Assembly: GCA_020852815.1 (NCBI GenBank) | Contig: JADZAN010000022.1 | Coordinates: forward strand, 1 to 62,394 | Origin: Gemmatimonadaceae bacterium | GTDB lineage: Bacteria; Gemmatimonadota; Gemmatimonadetes; Gemmatimonadales; Gemmatimonadaceae | Length of the DNA: 62,394 bases | Reading direction: 5' to 3' | In this document: piece after piece, positions 23,180 through 62,394 of the stretch | How the letters are laid out: every line of letters begins with the position of its first letter | Numbering within the stretch: position 1 is the first letter of the stretch | Position numbers and translations under genes: made by a program | The notes under the pieces: model-generated | Told to the model about the DNA's origin: nothing | The model's database searches: none | Seen by the model: the letters and a program-made list of their open reading frames with translations, nothing else

Positions 23180-24097
23180 CTATCTGGTGGCGAGTCGCAG
23201 GACCGCCTCGCGTATGGCCGGCCATGTCACCGCGCGCGGTGACATGACCTCGTGGTGCGCCGCATTGGGGACCACGACGACGTCGACGCGGTCGCCGGCA
23301 GCACGCGCCTTGGTGGCCCAGGCCTCGAGGTTGGCGCGGGGCATGATGCGATCCGACTCGCCAGCCAGCATGACCTGGGGGACCCCTAACGGGAGCCAGC
23401 TGGAGGGGGAGGCGTCGCGCCAGCGGTCGGGGACCAGCGCGGCGGTGCCGCCGAGGAGCTTGGGAACGGTCCCTTCGCTGCAGATGGGGTCGACGTAGGT
23501 ATTGAAGTCATAGAGGTCGCCGGGTCCGCCGAGTGCAACGACGCCCGCCAGCAGCAACGGCGAGGCGGCGTGCAGCGGCGAGGAGGCGGGGAGTTTACGG
23601 CGTGCGGCGAGCCAGAGCGCCATGTGGCCACCGGCGGAGTGGCCGATGGCGACGACGCGCGACAGGTCGAGCGGGTAGCGCTTCGCGATGCCACGCAGCG
23701 AGTCGGCCGCGGCGGCGACATCGAGAAAGGTCCCGGGCCAACCGCCGCCGGGGTTGTCGCGCCGGCGGTACTCGACGTTCCAGGTCGCCACGCCGGCATC
23801 GCGCAACGCGTCGGCCAAGGGGGCGGCGTTCCGCGCTGCAGCGTAGCCGTGGATCCAGCACCCGCCGTGGATGACGATGGCGACGGCGAAGGGTCCTTTC
23901 CCGTTAGGCAGGCGCAGCTCGCCGAACTGGAGCGAGTCGGCGCCGTAGGCGATCACGGCGTCGGGGGCCTTGCTGGGGAGGGCGTTGATGTCGGCGGGCC
24001 TCAGGAACTGCTGCGCACGGGCGGGAGTGGGCGTGGCGAGGGCGGCGATGAGACACAGAAGACGAGAGGACGGGAAGACGGGAAGACGAGAGGGCAT
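23180..24097 (-). CDS. Secreted alpha/beta hydrolase with a repeat-derived signal peptide
   Basis: A 305-residue alpha/beta hydrolase of the BD-FAE/esterase type: the oxyanion motif HGG at 77-79, the nucleophile S154 in GHSAGG, and a late histidine in NAAHHEV. The first ~29 residues (MPSRLPVFPSSRLLCLIAAL...ARA) form a signal peptide. Residues 2-14 are encoded by a copy of the octanucleotide repeat at 24058-24094, so the n- and early h-region come from repeat DNA. A peptidase-like or carboxylesterase role in the envelope is likely; the substrate is unknown. It is divergent from the M20 peptidase gene. Confidence 0.82.
   Translation of the reverse strand: MPSRLPVFPSSRLLCLIAALATPTPARAQQFLRPADINALPSKAPDAVIAYGADSLQFGELRLPNGKGPFAVAIVIHGGCWIHGYAAARNAAPLADALRDAGVATWNVEYRRRDNPGGGWPGTFLDVAAAADSLRGIAKRYPLDLSRVVAIGHSAGGHMALWLAARRKLPASSPLHAASPLLLAGVVALGGPGDLYDFNTYVDPICSEGTVPKLLGGTAALVPDRWRDASPSSWLPLGVPQVMLAGESDRIMPRANLEAWATKARAAGDRVDVVVVPNAAHHEVMSPRAVTWPAIREAVLRLATR
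24058..24094. repeat. Octanucleotide repeat array within a signal-peptide coding region
   Basis: About four imperfect 8-bp units (GAGAGGAC, GGGAAGAC, GGGAAGAC, GAGAGGG) lie immediately downstream of the hydrolase ATG on the minus strand and are translated there. The same family occurs at many other sites in the window. Confidence 0.8.
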
Positions 24098-26998: not shown

Positions 26999-28375
26999 CG
27001 TGGTGCAGGCAAGACTGCACAAGCTCGACACGGAGGTACACGGAGGCACCACGGAGGTTGAAGGCGCGTCGCGGCACTCCTGCGTTTCCCTCCGTTTCTC
27101 ATCCGTGTCTCCTCCGTGTCGTGCTTTGGTTGTCGCGGTCACCGGCGCCCAAGGCGGCCGATCGCGGGTGTATCGAGGGCAAATGGATCCCAGCTTTCGC
27201 TGGGAAGGTGGGCGTGGGGGCTGGGTTCGGCGCGTCGCGGCACTCCTTCGTTTGATTGCGTGTCTCCTTCGCGCGCTTCCGTGTCTGCTTCGTGCGCCTT
27301 CGTGTCTTCTCCGTGCGCTTCCGTGTCTCCTTCGTGCGCTTCCGTGTTTCCTCCGTCGTCCTCCGTGTTTCCTCCGTGGTCCTCCGTGTCGTGCTTTGGT
27401 TGTCGCGGTCACTGGCGCGCCAGGCAGCCGATCGCGGGTGTGCCGAGGACGAATGGATCCCAGCTTTCGCTGGGAAGGTGGGCGTGGGGGGCTGGGTGCG
27501 GCACGTCGCGGCACTCCTTCGTTTGATTGCGTGTCTCCTTCGTTTGATTGCGTGTCTCCTTCGCGCGCTTCCGTGTCTGCTTCGTGCGCCTCCGTGTTTC
27601 CTCCGTGGTCCTCCGTGTTTCCTCCGTGGTCCTCCGTGGTCCTCCGTGTTTCCTCCGTGGTCCTCCGTGTCGTGCTTTGGTTGTCGCGGTCACTGGCGCC
27701 CGAGGCGGCCGATCGCGGGTGTGCCGAGGACAAATGGATCCCAGCTTTCGCTGGGAAGGTGGGCGTGGGGGCTGGGTTCGACGCGTCGCGGCACTCCTTC
27801 GTTTGCTTTCGTGTCTCCTTCGTTTGCTTCCGTGTCACCTCCGTGCGCCTTCGTGTCTCCTCCGTGCGCCTCCTTGTCGCCTCCGTGCGCTTCCGTGTCT
27901 CCTTCGCGCGCTTCCGTGTCTCCTTCGTGCGCCTCCGTGTTTCCTCCGTGGTCCTCCGTGTTTCCTCCGTGGTCCTCCGTGTCGTGCTTTGGTTGTCGCG
28001 GTCACCGGCGCGCCAGACAGCCGATCGCGGGTGTGCCGAGGACAAATGGATCCCAGCTTTCGCTGGGAAGGTGGGCGTGGGGGCTGGGTTCGGCGCGTCG
28101 CGCGGCGCCTGTGGTTAGGCGTAGTGCGGGCAAGAGAGCAGAAGCTGGACACGGAGGTTCACGGAGGGTTCACGGAGGTACACGGAGAAGAGCGTTCACC
28201 ACGGAGGCACGGAGGACACGGGATCGGCTTGCCGGATGAGTGCGTGCGGTGCCTGGCTTTCCTGCGGGCCTTTTGGTCGAACTGGTACCGCTTCCCATCG
28301 TCGTCGCGGCATCCCTCCGTGCTCCTCCGTGCCTCCGTGATGAACAGCTTCACACCGTGAACCCCCGTGCGACCT
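26999..28375. repeat. Large compound repeat: CACGGAGG arrays with four hairpin-containing higher-order units
   Basis: A non-coding block of about 1.4 kb. On the plus strand it is built of CCTCCGTG/CTTCGTG-like 8-10-bp units, interrupted by a conserved segment starting CGTGCTTTGGTTGTCGCGG (near 27119, 27388, 27669 and 27981) and by the hairpin CCCAGCTTTCGCTGGG at 27189-27204, 27459-27474, 27740-27755 and 28052-28067. The spacing between hairpins is 270-313 bp, so four higher-order copies are present, flanked by GGTTAGGCGTRGTG segments near 26993 and 28113. The right end (28150-28375) has CACGGAGG units in both orientations. Frames stay open through it but encode only repeats such as TEETRRTTEETRR. 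Confidence 0.85.
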
Positions 28376-28491: not shown

Positions 28492-28568
28492 CCTCTCGTC
28501 TTCTCGTCCCCAACCTTCGCTGGGGCAGGCCTCTCGTCCTCTCGTCATCTCGTCCTCTCGTCTTCTCC
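28492..28568. repeat. Octanucleotide array plus hairpin upstream of the amidase
   Basis: Pyrimidine-strand units CTCGTCTT/CTCGTCCT run from about 28492 to 28568, interrupted by a CCCCAACCTTCGCTGGGG hairpin near 28508-28526. The array ends 10 bases before the amidase ATG, so it occupies the position of its 5' leader and promoter. Confidence 0.8.
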
Positions 28569-31020: not shown

Positions 31021-31432
31021 CGTTCCACTCCGTGTGGTGCGGATGTGTGAGCGGGGTTCCTTTCGAGGCATCGAATGCCGGGTGCCTCACCTCACGACGG
31101 CACCGCGTTCAGATCGTGCCGGGGGGACCGGACGAATCATGACGTGGTGCGCCGCCGGCCCAGAGATGAGGCGAGTCCCGGCGTTCGACGCTTTTGCTGC
31201 GTGCGGCCAACGTCCAGACGTGTCCTCGGCCACTGTGGTGATTGCGCTCGCCGCCCGGCGGCGAACGCGAGCGGCGCCGTCCCCCGGCGCGCGCGTCCTC
31301 TTGCACACACCATGTCTTCGTCATGCGGCCCTCTTATGGTTGAGCCCGCGGCTACCTGACGGCGCGCCACGAACGCTCCCACGCTACACGCGAGGTGCCG
31401 ATTCCTCTGTGACGTGATGCCACACGTGAATG
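31021..31432. other. Non-coding stretch
   Basis: About 410 bases between the vapC hairpin and the next repeat block. Several short frames are open on both strands but none has a recognisable domain or start context. I see nothing assignable here. Confidence 0.35.
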
Positions 31433-31590
31433 TGAGAAGACGAGAAGACGAGAAGACGAGAGGACGAGGTCGCTGGCGGGTGCCGGCTTGGTCGCAGGGT
31501 GTTTGTCGTCTCGTCCCCAGCCTTCGCTGGGGCAGGCTTCTCGTCTTCTTTCTTCTCGTCTTCTCGTCTTCTCGTCTTCTCGTCCTCTCC
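31433..31590. repeat. Inverted pair of octanucleotide arrays with hairpin
   Basis: The purine form (GAGAAGAC)n, about four units, lies at 31433-31468. Then come some 35 bases of other sequence, a CCCCAGCCTTCGCTGGGG hairpin near 31511-31528, and the pyrimidine form (CTCGTCTT)n to about 31590. Opposite orientation of the two arrays gives the block an overall inverted-repeat structure. It sits just downstream of the DUF5916 stop codon. Confidence 0.8.
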
Positions 31591-43600: not shown

Positions 43601-43851
43601 GAGAAGACGAGAGGACGAGAGGACGAGAAGACGAGAGGACGAGAGGCGTGTATGGGGTCTGACACTTGTGGTGGGGGGAGCGTTTACCCTGGGGGGCGAA
43701 GCAGAGAAGGGATCGATCTCCGGCTCGCCAGAAGTGGCCCCAACTGCTAGCCTTGCCCGCTGACGTTTCCTCGTCTTCTGGCCCCGGTTTTCGCTGCTCG
43801 CTTCGCTCGCATCTTCTCGTCCTCTCGTCCTCTCGTCCTCTCGTCCTCTGC
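43601..43851. repeat. Inverted pair of octanucleotide arrays between blaI and the AmpG-like gene
   Basis: The purine form, about five to six units of GAGAAGAC/GAGAGGAC, runs at 43601-43646. The pyrimidine form, about four units of CTCGTCCT, runs at 43812-43850. Between them are about 165 bases without a gene. The arrays flank a divergent promoter region; the right one runs directly into the coding sequence of the transporter, and the left one into the leader of the BlaI-like gene. Confidence 0.82.
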
Positions 43852-43925
43852 CCCTCGAGCCCACCACCGGCCACCCATGGCGTTGGGTCCCTTCGCTCTA
43901 CTTCGCGCAGGGGCTGCCGTACGTC

Positions 43926-55466: not shown

Positions 55467-58400
55467 CTAGCGCTCTCCCCCGGGGGGGCGGCGCTGGCCT
55501 TGCCCACCGGGGCCAAACTGCGGATTGCGCACGCGCTCCGGCACCTTCTCCCACTGCTCGGGGGTCAGGATCGCCTGCACTTCCTTGAGCGCGGCGGCGC
55601 GATCCTTCTGTGCCGCTTCCATCTTCGGGCGGATCTTCCCGAACAACGCCCCCATGTCGGGGTTGGCGCCGGCGTCCTTCAGCATCTTCTGGAACTCGTC
55701 GCCCAGCACCTTGTTCCTGGCCGCGAGCGAGTCGCTGAGCGGCTGCAACTTCGTCACCTGCTCTGCCGTGAGGGCAATCGAGTCCTTGAGGGCGAGGACC
55801 TGCTGCACCGGGTTAGCGTTGGCGCCCCCCATCCCGAAGCCACCACCAAAGCCGCCGGGGCCACCGCCCTGTCCACCGGGGCCACCGGGGCCGCCAAAGC
55901 CGCCCGGGCCCCGCTGCCCCTGCCCCCCCGCTCCTCCCTGTCCGCCAATCATCCCGCGAATCATGTCGCGGAAGCGATCGGGGCCCACGGTGTAGCGCGC
56001 CTGGATGCCGAGCTGGAAGGGAACCTTGATCCCGTTCTGGCCGGCGCGGTTGGCGCCGAAGCGCTCGTTGACCTGGTACTTGTACGACTGCGTGCTGGCA
56101 TCGAAGCCGCGCACGTAGAGGAGCGTGTTGTCGGTCCCGCGGAACTGCCCCCACCCACGCAGGTTGTCGCCGTGCAGGAGCTGGTCCAGCCCGCCTAACG
56201 CATTCACGGTCATCACCGAGATGGCAAGGCGCCGGTTGAGCCCCATGAAGTTCGGGCGCCAGTTGAGCTGCAGGTCGAGCGACGGCTGCCAGGGCCCGCG
56301 GCACGAGTTGCGCCCGGCGATCCCGCCGAGCTGCGATTCGAGGCACGACTTGACCGCGTCAGGGGCGTTGTCCAGCAGGTGCTGGATCCCCTCGGCGACC
56401 GCCACGTCGCTGGTTGTCGCCGGGTTGAAGAGGAAGGCCCGGTCGTTGCGCGAGCCGTCGCCGTTGATGTCGGCGCCGACCATCGGCGTGAACGGAGAGC
56501 CCGAGCTCAGGCGACCGAAGGCCGTGACCTCGAGCGCCTGACTGAACGGATACGTCACCGTTCCAACGATGGTGTGCCGGCGGTCGAAATCGCTCGGCGC
56601 CCACTCGCGGATGTTCGGGTTCCCTGCCGTGGTCGGTGAACCGAACGAGCCGCCACCGCCGCCGAAGCCGCCGAACGCCCCGCCGCCGCCCATCCCCGTC
56701 GCCCCCTGATCGATGGTCTGCGCCCAGGTGTACGAGAAGTTGAGCACCGCACCTTGCGAGGTGATCCCGCCCATCGACAGCGTGACCTGCTTCGAATCGC
56801 TGGAGAGGTCGGAGCCGGTGGCGAGCACCTGGCCAAAGGCGCCGTTGTTGCGCGAGCCAAGGACCGAGACTGCGCCGGTCACCGGCACGATGGTCGAGGC
56901 GTCAACGAAGACCGGGCGCCCTCCCTCGCCGGCGAGCCCAAACTGCGGCGTGCTGCGCAGGTTCACGTCGGTGTAGCCGGTCAGCGCCACGCCGCGCGCG
57001 TACTGGAAGTCGAGGTTGATGTTGTAGCGTTGCCGGAAGCGATGCTGCACGCCGAACGACGAGCGCACCGAACGCGCGGCCGAGAAGTCGTTGTCGAACA
57101 CCGTGACGTTGGGGCTCGTGGTCGGGAGGACCTGGTTGCCCCCGTCGAGGCACGACGTGGGGGACGACGCGGGGTCCTGCGCGTAGAGGTTCCAGTTGGG
57201 GATCGGGACGCCCGAGCCTATGCAGACGAGCTGCGACTCGTTGTCCGGGAGCCCGGTGGCACCGGCGGCAGATGCGACGAGCCCGATGGAGGGCGACGAG
57301 CGGAACTCGCCCACGCCGCCGCGGAGCACCCACGTGGGCGGGGCAAAGCGCCCCTGCTCCGGCATCCCTAACGAGTAGGTGAAGCCCGCGCGCGGAGACA
57401 GGCGGAACTCGGTGGGGACCTTGTCGGTGCGGAACCCGAAGGCCTGCTCCACGACCGGATTGTAGGCCGGTGTGCGGCCAAAGTACGACCCCTCGGCGCG
57501 CGCCCCCATCGTGAGCTGCAACGCACGGTTCACCCGCCACGTGTCGCCAAGGTAGACGGCCGCGTTGGCGCCGGCCCCTTCGCGCAGGCGCGGCGTGAGG
57601 GTGCGCGTGTACATCGCCGCGCGCCCCGCCTCGAAGTCGGCCAGCGAGTTGAAGGTGAACGTCCCCCAGCGGTTGCTGGTCACGTCACGCTCGAACGACT
57701 GCAGGTTGAACAGCCCGCCCAGCTTGAAGCGGTGCGCCCCGCCCTCGGAGAGCCAGGAGGTCTCGTTCGTCGCCTCGAAGGCGTTGGTGCGCCCGGCCTG
57801 CGGAAGCCCGGTGTTGCCGCCGAAGGTGAGCGTCGAGATACCGGTCTCGCCGTTGTCCAGCTCCGAGCTCACCTGCACGCGCCCGAACGGGAGGGTGAGG
57901 AATGGCTCGCCCGCGTTCTTGTTCACCGAGCCATACAGCTTGAGCTCGTTGAGAAAGCGCCCGCCGATGTTGGACGTAAGCGTCGCCGCGAGGCCGCCAC
58001 CCCAGTTGCGCGTGTCGCCGCCGGTTTGCGGGAGCGAGAGGGTGCTGATGCGCGTGGGGTCGGAGTTGCTGTAGGAATAGTCGCCGCGAATGGAGAGCGA
58101 CTGCCCACCCTCGGTGAGATAGTCGACGCGCAGAATCCCGGAGAGGTTGTCGCCCGTGCGGTCGTTGGCGAGGATCCCGCGCGGCGAGATCCCGGCCGCC
58201 TGCGCCAGGGAGAAGAAGCGCGCAACCGAGTCCGGGGCGACGCCGAAGCGCTCGAGCGTCGCGGCGTCGGCGTTGCCGAGGTTGGGGACGATATCCTCGC
58301 GCCGCCGCAGCTGCAGCGCCGTGAAGTAGAAGAGCTTGTCCTTGATGACGTGCGAGCCGAAGCCGCCGGAGAACTGGTTCTGCGTGTAACCCTGCGAGAG

Positions 58401-59258
58401 CGGCGAGCTGTCCTCGCCTTCCACAGCGAGACTCCGGTCGCGTAGCGAGTAGGTGAAGTTCCCCTGCGGGGTGTTGGTCCCGCTGCGAGTGGTGGAGGCG
58501 ATCTGTCCGCCGGAGAACTGGCCGCGGGCCACGTCGTATCCGGAGGTGATGACGCGCGAGTTGCGCACCGCCTCCTGGGGGACCTGCGACGACCCGAAGG
58601 AGAGTCCGTCGAGCGTGATATTGTTGGCGGTCGGCGCCTGGCCGGCGACGGAGAAGCCGGCCCCCGACGTGTCGGAGCCTGTGATGCTCACGACCCCCGG
58701 GGCGGTGAGCGCCAGCTGCGTGAGGTCCGAGGCGTCGATGGGGAGGCGGGCCGCCTGGTCGGCGTTGAGCGCGCGCTCGACTGACCCAGGGGCGGGGCGG
58801 TCGCCCTCTCGCGGCACGTTCTGGCGCGCCTGGACGGTGACGGCCGCGAGGACGGTGGGGTTGGTGGTCAGCTTGATGTTGACCACGAGCCGGTCCTCGT
58901 CGGCATGCCTGGCGACCGTCACTGTCGCGGGAGCAAGGCCGAGTGACCTTGCGATGACGCGATACTGTCCGCCGCCGTCGGGAAAGAGGACGGTGAACTT
59001 GCCCTGCGCGTTGGTGCGGGCGCGGCGGGTGACGTTCGTCTCGATCGACATCACCTCGATGTTTGCACCTTCCAGCGGGGCATTCGTCTCGGCCCGGATA
59101 ACGGTGCCGGTGATGATGTCGGTGGTGGCGCCCATCTGGGCGCGGGCGGTGGACGGAGCGAGTGCGAGTGTGGTGGCGAAACCAGCGAAAACCGCAGCGA
59201 TAGCGATCAACGCCCGGCGCACGCCGAGCGCGCTCTGCGGGACGGACAGATTGTGCAC
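55467..59258 (-). CDS. Oar-type TonB-dependent receptor fused to a C-terminal LTXXQ domain
   Basis: A 1263-residue outer-membrane protein. The signal peptide is about 1-41 (cleavage near ARAQ), and a carboxypeptidase-regulatory-like domain lies at about 46-125 (ITGTVIRAETNAPLEGANIE). Then come the plug (about 160-290; VARGQFSGGQIASTTRSGTN) and a long beta-barrel. Instead of ending at the barrel, the chain continues through a Gly/Pro/Gln linker (about 1110-1160) into a helical region, IALTAEQVTKLQPLSDSLAA ... AILTPEQWEKVPERVR, which carries two LTxxQ motifs like Spy/CpxP periplasmic proteins. The start is GTG at 59258 with GAGGG upstream. The transported substrate is unknown. Confidence 0.85.
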   Translation of the reverse strand: MHNLSVPQSALGVRRALIAIAAVFAGFATTLALAPSTARAQMGATTDIITGTVIRAETNAPLEGANIEVMSIETNVTRRARTNAQGKFTVLFPDGGGQYRVIARSLGLAPATVTVARHADEDRLVVNIKLTTNPTVLAAVTVQARQNVPREGDRPAPGSVERALNADQAARLPIDASDLTQLALTAPGVVSITGSDTSGAGFSVAGQAPTANNITLDGLSFGSSQVPQEAVRNSRVITSGYDVARGQFSGGQIASTTRSGTNTPQGNFTYSLRDRSLAVEGEDSSPLSQGYTQNQFSGGFGSHVIKDKLFYFTALQLRRREDIVPNLGNADAATLERFGVAPDSVARFFSLAQAAGISPRGILANDRTGDNLSGILRVDYLTEGGQSLSIRGDYSYSNSDPTRISTLSLPQTGGDTRNWGGGLAATLTSNIGGRFLNELKLYGSVNKNAGEPFLTLPFGRVQVSSELDNGETGISTLTFGGNTGLPQAGRTNAFEATNETSWLSEGGAHRFKLGGLFNLQSFERDVTSNRWGTFTFNSLADFEAGRAAMYTRTLTPRLREGAGANAAVYLGDTWRVNRALQLTMGARAEGSYFGRTPAYNPVVEQAFGFRTDKVPTEFRLSPRAGFTYSLGMPEQGRFAPPTWVLRGGVGEFRSSPSIGLVASAAGATGLPDNESQLVCIGSGVPIPNWNLYAQDPASSPTSCLDGGNQVLPTTSPNVTVFDNDFSAARSVRSSFGVQHRFRQRYNINLDFQYARGVALTGYTDVNLRSTPQFGLAGEGGRPVFVDASTIVPVTGAVSVLGSRNNGAFGQVLATGSDLSSDSKQVTLSMGGITSQGAVLNFSYTWAQTIDQGATGMGGGGAFGGFGGGGGSFGSPTTAGNPNIREWAPSDFDRRHTIVGTVTYPFSQALEVTAFGRLSSGSPFTPMVGADINGDGSRNDRAFLFNPATTSDVAVAEGIQHLLDNAPDAVKSCLESQLGGIAGRNSCRGPWQPSLDLQLNWRPNFMGLNRRLAISVMTVNALGGLDQLLHGDNLRGWGQFRGTDNTLLYVRGFDASTQSYKYQVNERFGANRAGQNGIKVPFQLGIQARYTVGPDRFRDMIRGMIGGQGGAGGQGQRGPGGFGGPGGPGGQGGGPGGFGGGFGMGGANANPVQQVLALKDSIALTAEQVTKLQPLSDSLAARNKVLGDEFQKMLKDAGANPDMGALFGKIRPKMEAAQKDRAAALKEVQAILTPEQWEKVPERVRNPQFGPGGQGQRRPPGGER

Positions 59259-59392
59259 GAGAAAACCCTCGGGATGAACATCTCTGGGGACCTCGGTTGG
59301 ACCACCGGGGTCGGCGGTTGTTAACGGTCGGCGCGGAATCGGCGCTGTCGAATTGCCGTCCTTCCTCCGCTAAGCTTCTGCAGGGAACGGCG

Positions 59393-60028
59393 TTGGATCA
59401 CCACCCCCGCGCGACCGTCGTGCTCTCCGAGTTTCTCACGTATTTCCGCCTGGGGGTCGGCCATATCGCCGACCTCAAGGGCTACGACCACATCCTCTTC
59501 ATAGTGGCGCTGACCGCCGGCTACGCACCGCGCGACTGGCGGCGCCTGCTCTGGCTCGTCACCGCCTTCACCATCGGCCACTCCGCCACCCTGGCGCTGG
59601 CCACGCTCGACCTGGTCCGCGTCCGCGCCCCGCTCATCGAGTTCCTGATCCCGGTCACCATCGTGGTGACGGCGGGGTACTCGTTGCTCTCGCGGCGGCG
59701 AGCCGAGTCATCGGGCGAGCCGTATCGCCCCGAACGTCATGCGCTCCTGTACGCGCTTGCGGGGACTTTCGGGCTGATTCACGGGCTCGGCTTCTCCAAC
59801 TTCCTGCGCGCGGTGTTGGGGGGAGAGGAGTCGATCGTCCTCCCGCTCTTCGCCTTCAACGTCGGGTTGGAAGTCGGGCAACTGGCCATCGTCGCCTGCG
59901 TGCTGCTGGCCGGTGCGGCGGTGTGCGAAATCGCCGGACTCTCGCGCCGGCGATGGGCAGCCGCATTGTCGCTCGTGATCGTCCTCGCCAGCCTCCGAAT
60001 GATCGTCGAACGTTACCCCGGAATGTGA
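59393..60028 (+). CDS. HupE/UreJ-like membrane protein
   Basis: About 211 residues and six to seven hydrophobic segments. GYDHILFIVALTAGY, TAFTIGHSATLALATLDLV and GLIHGLGFSNFLRAVLGG contain the conserved histidines of HupE/UreJ-2 proteins, which are linked to nickel or cobalt supply or to metal-site assembly. The TTG at 59393 is preferred because AGGGAA lies six to eight bases upstream; the GTG at 59420 is an alternative. Its TGA overlaps the GTG start of the M1 peptidase gene, so translation of the zinc peptidase is probably coupled to it. Confidence 0.78.
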   Translation: MDHHPRATVVLSEFLTYFRLGVGHIADLKGYDHILFIVALTAGYAPRDWRRLLWLVTAFTIGHSATLALATLDLVRVRAPLIEFLIPVTIVVTAGYSLLSRRRAESSGEPYRPERHALLYALAGTFGLIHGLGFSNFLRAVLGGEESIVLPLFAFNVGLEVGQLAIVACVLLAGAAVCEIAGLSRRRWAAALSLVIVLASLRMIVERYPGM

Positions 60029-62103
60029 GCGTGCCTGTGACTCCTCTCGTCTTCTCGTCTTCCCGTCTTCTCGTCTTCTGGTCCCTGGCGTTCCTCGCCA
60101 CATCGGCGCACGCGCAGAACTGGGTGAACGCCAGGGACCGAAAGACCAACCAGAGTTCGTTCCGCGCCATCGACGAGTGGCCCGATCCTAACGAGTACCG
60201 CAACGCGGCGGGGGCGCCGGGGCCAAAGTACTGGCAGCAGCGCGTCGACTACGCCATCAAGGCCACGCTCGACACGGTGGCGCACAGCGTGACGGGGAGC
60301 GAACGCGTCACGTACCACAACAACTCCCCCGACCAGCTCTCGTACGTCTGGTTCCAGCTCGACCAGAACATCGAGAAGCCGGATTCGCGCGCCGCCCTGG
60401 TGGAGCAGGCGCTCCCGACACGCATCCCCGAGCAGGCGCGGCGCTTCCTGGCGCCGGAGGAGTTCGACGGCGGCTACAACCTCACGCGCGTGCAGGTGGT
60501 CGATGCCAAGGGGGTGAGGCGCGACGCCCGCTACGTGATCAACGGGACGGTGATGAAGGTGCACCTGGCGGCACCGATCGCGACCGGGCAGTCGGCGGTG
60601 ATCGAGATCGCCTGGAACAACCGGATCCCCGAGGGTGGGCGCAACGGGCGCGGCGCCAAGGAGCTGGTAAAGGACGGCTGGCTCTACGAACTGGCGCAGT
60701 GGTTCCCGCGCGCCTCGGTGTACGACGACGTGAACGGGTGGGCCACCGACCAGTTCCTGGGGCAGGGCGAGTTCTACCTCAACTTTGGCAACTACGACGT
60801 CGAGCTCACCGTTCCGCGCAACCACATCGTCAACGCCACGGGAGTGCTCACCAATCCGGCGCAGGTCCTCACCGTGTCGCAGCAGCAACGGCTGGCCAGG
60901 GCGTGGACGAGCGACACGCCGGTCTTCATCGTTGCGCCTGACGAGGTGATGAAGCCCGAGGCGCGCCCAGCGGGGTCGGCGCCGCTCACATGGAAGTTCC
61001 GCGCCGAGAACGTGCGCGACTTTGCGTGGGTGTCGAGCAAGGCGTACGTATGGGACGCGATGGGCTTCAGGTACCGTCCCACCGACAAGCCCATCGAGCT
61101 GCACTCGCTCTATCCGCGCGACGCCATGCCGCTGTGGGACTCCGTCAGCACCAAGGCCATCGCGCAGACCATGAGGACGTACGGGCGGATGTCGTTCGAG
61201 TACCCGTACCCCAAGGCGGTCAACGTGCACGGCCCGGTCTTCGGGATGGAGTACCCGATGATCGCCTTCTGCGGTGCGCGCCCGGCGGCGGACGGCAAGG
61301 TCTCGCCCGGGCTGGCCCGCGCCCTCATCTCGGTCACCATCCACGAGGTGGGACACAACTGGTTCCCGATGATCGTCGCCTCGGACGAACGCAAGTGGAC
61401 GTGGATGGACGAGGGGATCAACTCCTTCCTGCAGTACTACGCCGAGAAGGACTGGGACCCCGCATATCCCTCGCAGCGCGGGCCGGCGAAGAACATCGTC
61501 GGCTACATGAAGCAGGACGCGCAGGTGCCGCTGATGACGGAGTCCAACGACATCCAGGCGCAGTTCGGCAACAACGGCTACTCCAAGCCGGCCGCCGGGC
61601 TGGTGATGCTGCGCGAGCAGGTACTGGGCGATTCGTTGTTCGACGAGGCGTTCCGCGAGTACTCGAGGAAGTGGATGTTCAAGCATCCGCAGCCGGCCGA
61701 CTTCTTCCGCTCCATCGAGGACGGCGCGGGGGAGCAGCTCAACTACTTCTGGCGCGGCTGGTTCTACACCACGTACGCCAACGACCAATCGATCGCGGGA
61801 GTGGAGCAGCAGGCCGGCGATTCGTTGTTAGGTCCCAGCAAGGCCGGCGAGACGTATTACCGTGTGAAGATCGAGAACAAGGGAGGGCTCGTGCTTCCGC
61901 TGCAGGTCGAGGTGACGTACGACGACGGGACCAAGGCGCTGGTGAAGCTCCCGGCCGACGTCTGGCGCCGCAACGAGCTGTCGTTCACGTACGGCTTCTT
62001 CACGAAGAGGAAGGTGACGCAGATCGTGCTCGACCCGAAGGAGGTGCTGGCCGATGTCGATCGGTCGAACAACACGTGGGTGAGGCCGAATACCATTTCG
62101 TAG
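60025..62103 (+). CDS. Secreted M1-family metallopeptidase with a repeat-derived signal peptide
   Basis: A 692-residue exported aminopeptidase-like enzyme. The catalytic zinc site is HEVGHNWFP, with the second glutamate in WMDEGINSFLQYYAE; the exopeptidase-type GMEYP motif precedes. Translation is taken from the GTG at 60025, overlapping the HupE stop (GTGA). The signal peptide reads VTPLVFSSSRLLVFWSLAFL then ATSAHAQ, and residues about 7-18 are encoded by the octanucleotide array at 60044-60080. GTGs at 60031 and 60037 are alternative starts. It probably degrades peptides in the periplasm. Confidence 0.87.
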   Translation: MSVPVTPLVFSSSRLLVFWSLAFLATSAHAQNWVNARDRKTNQSSFRAIDEWPDPNEYRNAAGAPGPKYWQQRVDYAIKATLDTVAHSVTGSERVTYHNNSPDQLSYVWFQLDQNIEKPDSRAALVEQALPTRIPEQARRFLAPEEFDGGYNLTRVQVVDAKGVRRDARYVINGTVMKVHLAAPIATGQSAVIEIAWNNRIPEGGRNGRGAKELVKDGWLYELAQWFPRASVYDDVNGWATDQFLGQGEFYLNFGNYDVELTVPRNHIVNATGVLTNPAQVLTVSQQQRLARAWTSDTPVFIVAPDEVMKPEARPAGSAPLTWKFRAENVRDFAWVSSKAYVWDAMGFRYRPTDKPIELHSLYPRDAMPLWDSVSTKAIAQTMRTYGRMSFEYPYPKAVNVHGPVFGMEYPMIAFCGARPAADGKVSPGLARALISVTIHEVGHNWFPMIVASDERKWTWMDEGINSFLQYYAEKDWDPAYPSQRGPAKNIVGYMKQDAQVPLMTESNDIQAQFGNNGYSKPAAGLVMLREQVLGDSLFDEAFREYSRKWMFKHPQPADFFRSIEDGAGEQLNYFWRGWFYTTYANDQSIAGVEQQAGDSLLGPSKAGETYYRVKIENKGGLVLPLQVEVTYDDGTKALVKLPADVWRRNELSFTYGFFTKRKVTQIVLDPKEVLADVDRSNNTWVRPNTIS
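60044..60080. repeat. Octanucleotide array inside the M1 signal peptide
   Basis: About four and a half units of CTCGTCTT/CCCGTCTT, in frame after the start codon and translated as LVFSSSRLLVF. An 8-bp gain or loss would frameshift the gene. Confidence 0.85.
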
Positions 62104-62394
62104 AGGACGAGAAGACGAGAAGACGAGAAGACGAGAAGACGAGAAGACGAGAGGACGAGAGGACGAGAAGACGAGAAGACGAGAAGTCGAGAAGTCGAGA
62201 AGTCGAGAAGACGAAAAGTCGAGGGGAGCGTCGTGACGCGCCGAACCCAGCCTCCCACGCCCAGCTTCCCAGCGCAAGCTGGGATCCATTCGTCGTCGCG
62301 CTCCACGCCACTAGCCGCATCGGGCGCCGGTGACCGCAACGCGAAAAGCGCGACACGGAGGTCCACGGAGGAGGCACGGAGGAGGCACGGAGGA
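62103..62394. repeat. Compound repeat block at the right edge
   Basis: An array of about fifteen GAGAAGAC/GAGAGGAC/GAGAAGTC units at 62103-62223, then a hairpin CCCAGCGCAAGCTGGG at 62268-62283 in inverted orientation (GGATCC on its right), then CACGGAGG units from 62353 to the window end. All three families of the window meet here, in the same company as at 26,999-28,568. No gene is visible. Confidence 0.88.

Follow-up and report, generated by a model that had tools for sequence, protein, structure and literature searches.

An LTXXQ domain fused to the C-terminus of an Oar-like TonB-dependent receptor is common to most of the phylum Gemmatimonadota

The receptor gene and its surroundings

The window, i.e., the whole stretch of 62,394 nucleotides that was analysed, contains the gene of a TonB-dependent receptor of the Oar subclass, since plug and barrel fold, OMP_b-brl_4 (residues 364-1000, E 4.5e-46) and CarboxypepD_reg are all present (Table 1). 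A first-pass annotation made from the sequence alone had described an Oar-like receptor with a fused C-terminal LTXXQ domain at 55467-59258, a span which coincides exactly with an open reading frame; the strand, absent from that description, is minus. Pfam searches recovered both families mentioned above together with LTXXQ (PF07813) on residues 1157-1237 (E 2.2e-7), and with 32.0 bits against a curated cut-off of 24.3 bits the tail is a member of this family. The finer traits described in the same annotation were also recognized: a linker that is rich in Gly with some Pro, and two LTxxQ motifs (LTAEQ and LTPEQ, 68 residues apart) within a helical segment.

Table 1. Features of the receptor gene in the window, and loci of the related barrel-less gene.
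Feature	Residues	Position	Strand	Basis
Whole receptor gene	1-1263	55467..59258	minus	GTG start at 59258, stop 55469-55467; ORF, Pfam, orthologues
Signal peptide	1-40	59139..59258	minus	Likely cleavage ARA/Q, inferred from motif
CarboxypepD_reg N-terminal extension (Oar hallmark)	49-131	58866..59114	minus	Pfam E 3.6e-14
TonB-box-like stretch LAAVTVQA	137-144	58827..58850	minus	Assigned by position only
Plug domain	about 157-257	58488..58790	minus	Weak Pfam Plug 157-238; AlphaFold model; A3 profile matches plug region of TbpA structures
Beta-barrel (last strand 1081-1091)	about 265-1091	55986..58466	minus	AlphaFold model; Foldseek
Short helix, then Gly-rich disordered linker	1092-1143	55830..55985	minus	Sequence; pLDDT <50 over most
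Helical LTXXQ tail domain	1144-1246	55521..55829	minus	AlphaFold; PF07813 at 55548-55793
First LTxxQ motif, LTAEQ	1163-1167	55758..55772	minus	Sequence; conservation
Second LTxxQ motif, LTPEQ	1231-1235	55554..55568	minus	Sequence; conservation
Barrel-less gene, one genus		L194:3060-3815 (G006:C1:90110-90811) and L214 (G158:C247:14647-15348)		

A frame error or the mis-joining of two genes was ruled out: a single frame spans both parts in the two congeneric genomes and in most other relatives. The orthologues in both congeners are 84% identical over the protein, and the fusion is intact in them. The gene is flanked by others coding for a CCP_MauG peroxidase, a HupE/UreJ-like protein (HupE_UreJ_2, adjoining the receptor at 59297-60028), a Peptidase_M1 and a GNAT protein; gene order is conserved only among a few close loci, and an operon partner was ruled out.

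Besides the receptor, an 8-bp unit (AGACGAGA / GGACGAGA) recurs in tandem arrays that are scattered across the window, several of them intergenic (24060-24089, 28530-28567, 31430-31589, 43601-43856, 60045-60084 and 62102-62223); a 22-base probe for these arrays has 31 matches in the window and none in shuffles. A cluster of 10-, 21- and 63/84-bp arrays of CTCCGTG-type units is also found at 27077-28187.

Sequence signal and predicted structure of the tail

Related tails were sorted into types A1 (that of the query), A2, A3 and a mixed rest. Taken alone, 23 of 26 related tails match PF07813, and no match was obtained for five shuffled and one reversed versions of the query tail. At least two L[TS]xxQ motifs occur in 69 of 103 tails vs. 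0.7% of shuffles, with a spacing of exactly 68 residues in 55 of those 69, and an LTXXQ match due to chance composition was ruled out by these shuffle, reversal and motif-count controls. Across 96 tails, conservation peaks at the first motif (D1159, 98%; L1163, 96%; Q1167, 93%) and at the second (L1231, 86%; Q1235, 98%; P1240, 93%), and these six residues are fold-makers. A1 tails are otherwise more variable than their barrels (mean p-distance of 0.64 vs. 0.51), the motif residues being fixed. The A1 profile matches every tail type with E <1e-3, E-values being calculated on a set of some 100 sequences. PF07813 itself gave no match in the one A3-type tail examined, nor in the tail of a barrel-less protein described below, so that a common fold and function across tail types is assumed here through profile homology.

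The LTXXQ superfamily includes metal sensors, and the HupE_UreJ_2 gene lies next door to the receptor; a tail of CnrX/ZraP type sensing a metal and gating its uptake could thus be envisaged. However, HupE is a neighbour in only four close loci, A1 tails contain 0.3% His and almost no Cys, residues of the metal-ligand type being scarce, and no conserved set of His, Cys or Met ligands was found in the tails. The lack of conserved His/Cys argues against metal sensing, which we consider very improbable.

Direct sequence comparison of the tail with solved structures was discarded as a guide, as it returned compositional helical matches only (apolipoproteins, designed proteins; none better than E 0.005), with neither Spy nor CpxP among them. 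Modelled alone (120 residues, AlphaFold, mean pLDDT 84), the tail is predicted to fold into two long helices that run antiparallel and are flanked by short ones, a hairpin consistent with the CpxP/CnrX/Spy type, with the LTxxQ motifs at helix ends. In fold searches (Foldseek, VIA-align), CnrX, STV, Spy, CpxP and ZraP account for 19 of the 50 matches listed. Among these, CnrX (Z 7.9) is one of the best family matches, ZraP reaches 6.4, and Spy and CpxP 6.8 each over 82-102 residues, values which generic helical bundles equal; the CnrX and CpxP alignments cover nearly the full length of the tail. The individual matches are weak, with Foldseek E >1 for the LTXXQ-family structures and Z <=7.9, mixed with generic helical bundles. 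The predicted structure is thus consistent with the LTXXQ family, and membership is carried by the Pfam match.

The model of residues 121-1263 (AlphaFold; mean pLDDT 81, pTM 0.78) comprises plug, barrel, disordered linker and the same hairpin. Its best Foldseek matches listed are all TonB-dependent receptors, led by the ferredoxin importer FusA (E 8.6e-29) and YddB; TM-scores to the query are near 0.45, and thus name the fold, not the substrate. By our own count the barrel has 22 long strands, short extra hairpins (model 338-360 and 925-943) being taken as loops, and this even number places the tail on the side of the plug, which precedes the barrel, i.e., in the periplasm. The periplasmic position proposed for the barrel C-terminus agrees with this count, and also with the signal peptides of free-standing homologues.

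Distribution, descent and barrel-less relatives

The receptor-tail fusion of this soil bacterium is common to most of its phylum. A tail profile matches 160 of 249 Gemmatimonadota genomes, most of the stronger matches lying within ORFs of about 1200-1450 aa, and most short ORFs with strong matches represent contig ends or interrupted frames of receptors. The named relatives found are Gemmatimonadota, including a plasmid of Gemmatirosa kalamazoonensis, which points to a Gemmatimonadaceae genome as the origin of the window, and a search of plasmids with the tail query retrieved Gemmatirosa only.

Receptors were compared in a set of 112 sequences plus the query, a few of them cut by locus ends. 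Seven of the 112 end at the barrel, and the rest, bar those cuts, are tailed. The tail-less ones terminate in Phe (six) or His (the seventh) at the very column where tailed receptors run on, and a terminal aromatic residue (RYNF, RYAF) is nearly always found at tail-less C-termini, including those of Bacteroidota. The receptors compared from other phyla, a few plasmid-borne ones of Bacteroidota and Acidobacteriota, are all tail-less, as are more distant Oar-like receptors of Gemmatimonadota, one of them in this genome. The tail-less relatives in Gemmatimonadota and Bacteroidota end at their last barrel strand, as the first-pass annotation had it for Oar-like receptors in general.

A quick tree, for which tail-less Bacteroidota Oar-like receptors (L181, L182, L184-L186) served as outgroup, sets the 55 tailed receptors sampled opposite all 12 tail-less ones, the separating branch having a support of 100 and a length of 0.82; the best reading of these sequences is that the tail was gained once. 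Divergence of the tail correlates with that of the barrel (r = 0.90; 0.92 within A1), indicating that tails were inherited with their barrels and not swapped. Pairwise dN/dS of the tail (0.14-0.40) is near that of the barrel (0.11-0.30), and the tail is thus under purifying selection. The fusion foreseen in the first-pass annotation stands, being kept in dozens of relatives, and a separation of the domain into its own gene was not found for this receptor family, other free-standing LTXXQ genes existing nevertheless. Nor is it a one-off: the architecture appears to be standard, and singly acquired, in a large clade of Gemmatimonadota receptors.

Two receptors, L178 (G165:C90) and L179 (G116:C111), carry tandem double tails after the barrel, and elsewhere two tailed receptor genes, L034 and L133 (G032:C1:2034099-2041748), are convergent, tail to tail.

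LTXXQ proteins that stand alone are common across Gemmatimonadota, and the examples examined (L187, L189, L196) start with a signal peptide; the fused domain probably derives from free-standing secreted genes of this kind. One ORF of 507 aa (L195:2743-4263, G237:C125) contains at least two consecutive LTXXQ-like domains. Within one genus, a further gene encodes a signal peptide, CarboxypepD_reg and a TonB-box-like LSMVE stretch followed directly by the tail, with no plug or barrel (Table 1). Its copies in two species (G006 and G158) are 71% identical, with dN/dS of 0.17 over 254 codons, and a local search of limited size matched its tail to the A1 profile (E 5e-26); in a third genome, G089, only two separate pieces in different frames were found. 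The conservation of this gene in two species indicates that the tail can persist without a barrel. It also suggests a joint action of N-terminal extension and tail in the periplasm, and a role of the tail beyond helping its own barrel to fold.

This bears on one of the alternatives, in which the tail would chaperone the nascent barrel intramolecularly, in a Spy-like manner, keeping it soluble until it reaches the BAM complex, and would take no part in transport. Spy binds and protects outer-membrane proteins (PMC8546600), the tail nearly always accompanies a large barrel, and its divergence tracks that of the barrel. On the other hand, Oar-like receptors of similar size do without a tail in the same phylum and often in the same genome, the barrel-less protein retains the domain under selection, and the tail comes last in the order of synthesis; we regard this folding aid as unlikely.

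Possible role of the tail and known systems

We infer, with a probability of roughly 0.45, that the tail is a polypeptide-binding module of Spy/CpxP type tethered at the periplasmic mouth of an Oar-like transporter, and rank this reading ahead of a folding aid or a sensor. The C-terminus would pass the last barrel strand, enter the periplasm through the flexible Gly-rich linker and end in the LTXXQ hairpin. The conserved motif core would hold this hairpin, and its variable, clade-specific surface may bind a cognate periplasmic partner or a polypeptide moved by the receptor, so that binding or hand-over would take place at the channel. Oar of Myxococcus xanthus is a TonB-dependent transporter required for the secretion of PopC, a 50.8-kDa protease (PMC6434023); by analogy with this protease-moving receptor and with the binding of outer-membrane proteins by Spy, polypeptide cargo is thinkable here. 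A bolder version is that Gemmatimonadota possess phylum-specific TonB-dependent transporters with their own holdase, a tethered Spy-like cradle at the channel mouth which would catch polypeptide cargo while proteins or peptides are imported (or exported, as with Oar and PopC), with the barrel-less paralogue as its soluble helper; its odds are rather low.

A regulatory function of the tail has been weighed as well. Like CpxP or CnrX, it might bind a sensor or an anti-sigma factor in the periplasm, restrain it, and report occupancy of, or damage to, the receptor. CnrX chains are among its best family matches listed, clade-specific surfaces would fit specific partners, and the barrel-less protein might act in trans. 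Nonetheless, the genes of CpxP and CnrX normally lie with those of their partners, whereas no conserved partner or regulator gene adjoins the receptor in the 21 loci compared; a single sensor-like cluster of neighbours is present in 4 of them only. This unconserved gene order argues against an operon shared with a regulator in the manner of CpxP or CnrX, and such a sensor seems as doubtful as the folding aid. The helical tail might also be a passive spacer or anchor that merely keeps the receptor close to peptidoglycan, to TonB or to some other protein of the envelope, an idea in keeping with the low-complexity linker and with strong conservation only at structural residues; it is improbable, as Pfam reveals no peptidoglycan-binding signature in the receptor, and a specific fold has been retained with clade-specific surfaces.

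Our search of the openly accessible literature retrieved no work linking an LTXXQ or Spy-like domain to a TonB-dependent receptor fusion, and the architecture seems undescribed, though the sequences sit in public genomes. A survey of 34,893 TonB-dependent transporters divided them by N-terminal architecture (PMC6434023), and a C-terminal periplasmic module kept by much of a phylum represents a design separate from those N-terminal add-ons. Tailed, tail-less and tandem-tailed receptors, together with a barrel-less tail protein, constitute a natural experiment on how a receptor uses a binding domain on its inner side, and on whether Oar-like receptors move polypeptides.

Several known systems share part of this layout. 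As described in the available text of PMC6434023, Oar of M. xanthus likewise has a CarboxypepD_reg N-terminal extension, a plug and a predicted 22-strand barrel; that text deals with N-terminal architectures only and describes no C-terminal domain, the comparison being one of descriptions, not of sequences. FecA/FpvA-type transducers also combine a receptor with an extra periplasmic module, but in the same text theirs is N-terminal, for signalling, and of another fold (PMC6434023). The metal sensors CnrX and ZraP, with Z of 7.9 and 6.4 when structures are compared, group with the tail in one fold family, and differ in the His/Cys ligand set that the receptor tail lacks. Spy and CpxP (PF07813) have in common with the tail two LTxxQ motifs, a helical hairpin (predicted for the tail) and a periplasmic place; they are free-standing dimers, whereas the receptor carries its domain covalently attached through a linker. 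Finally, OmpA and other barrels bear a periplasmic domain at the C-terminus, so that their last barrel strand is internal as well, but in the present receptor the domain is a helical LTXXQ one and the barrel that of a plugged, TonB-dependent transporter.
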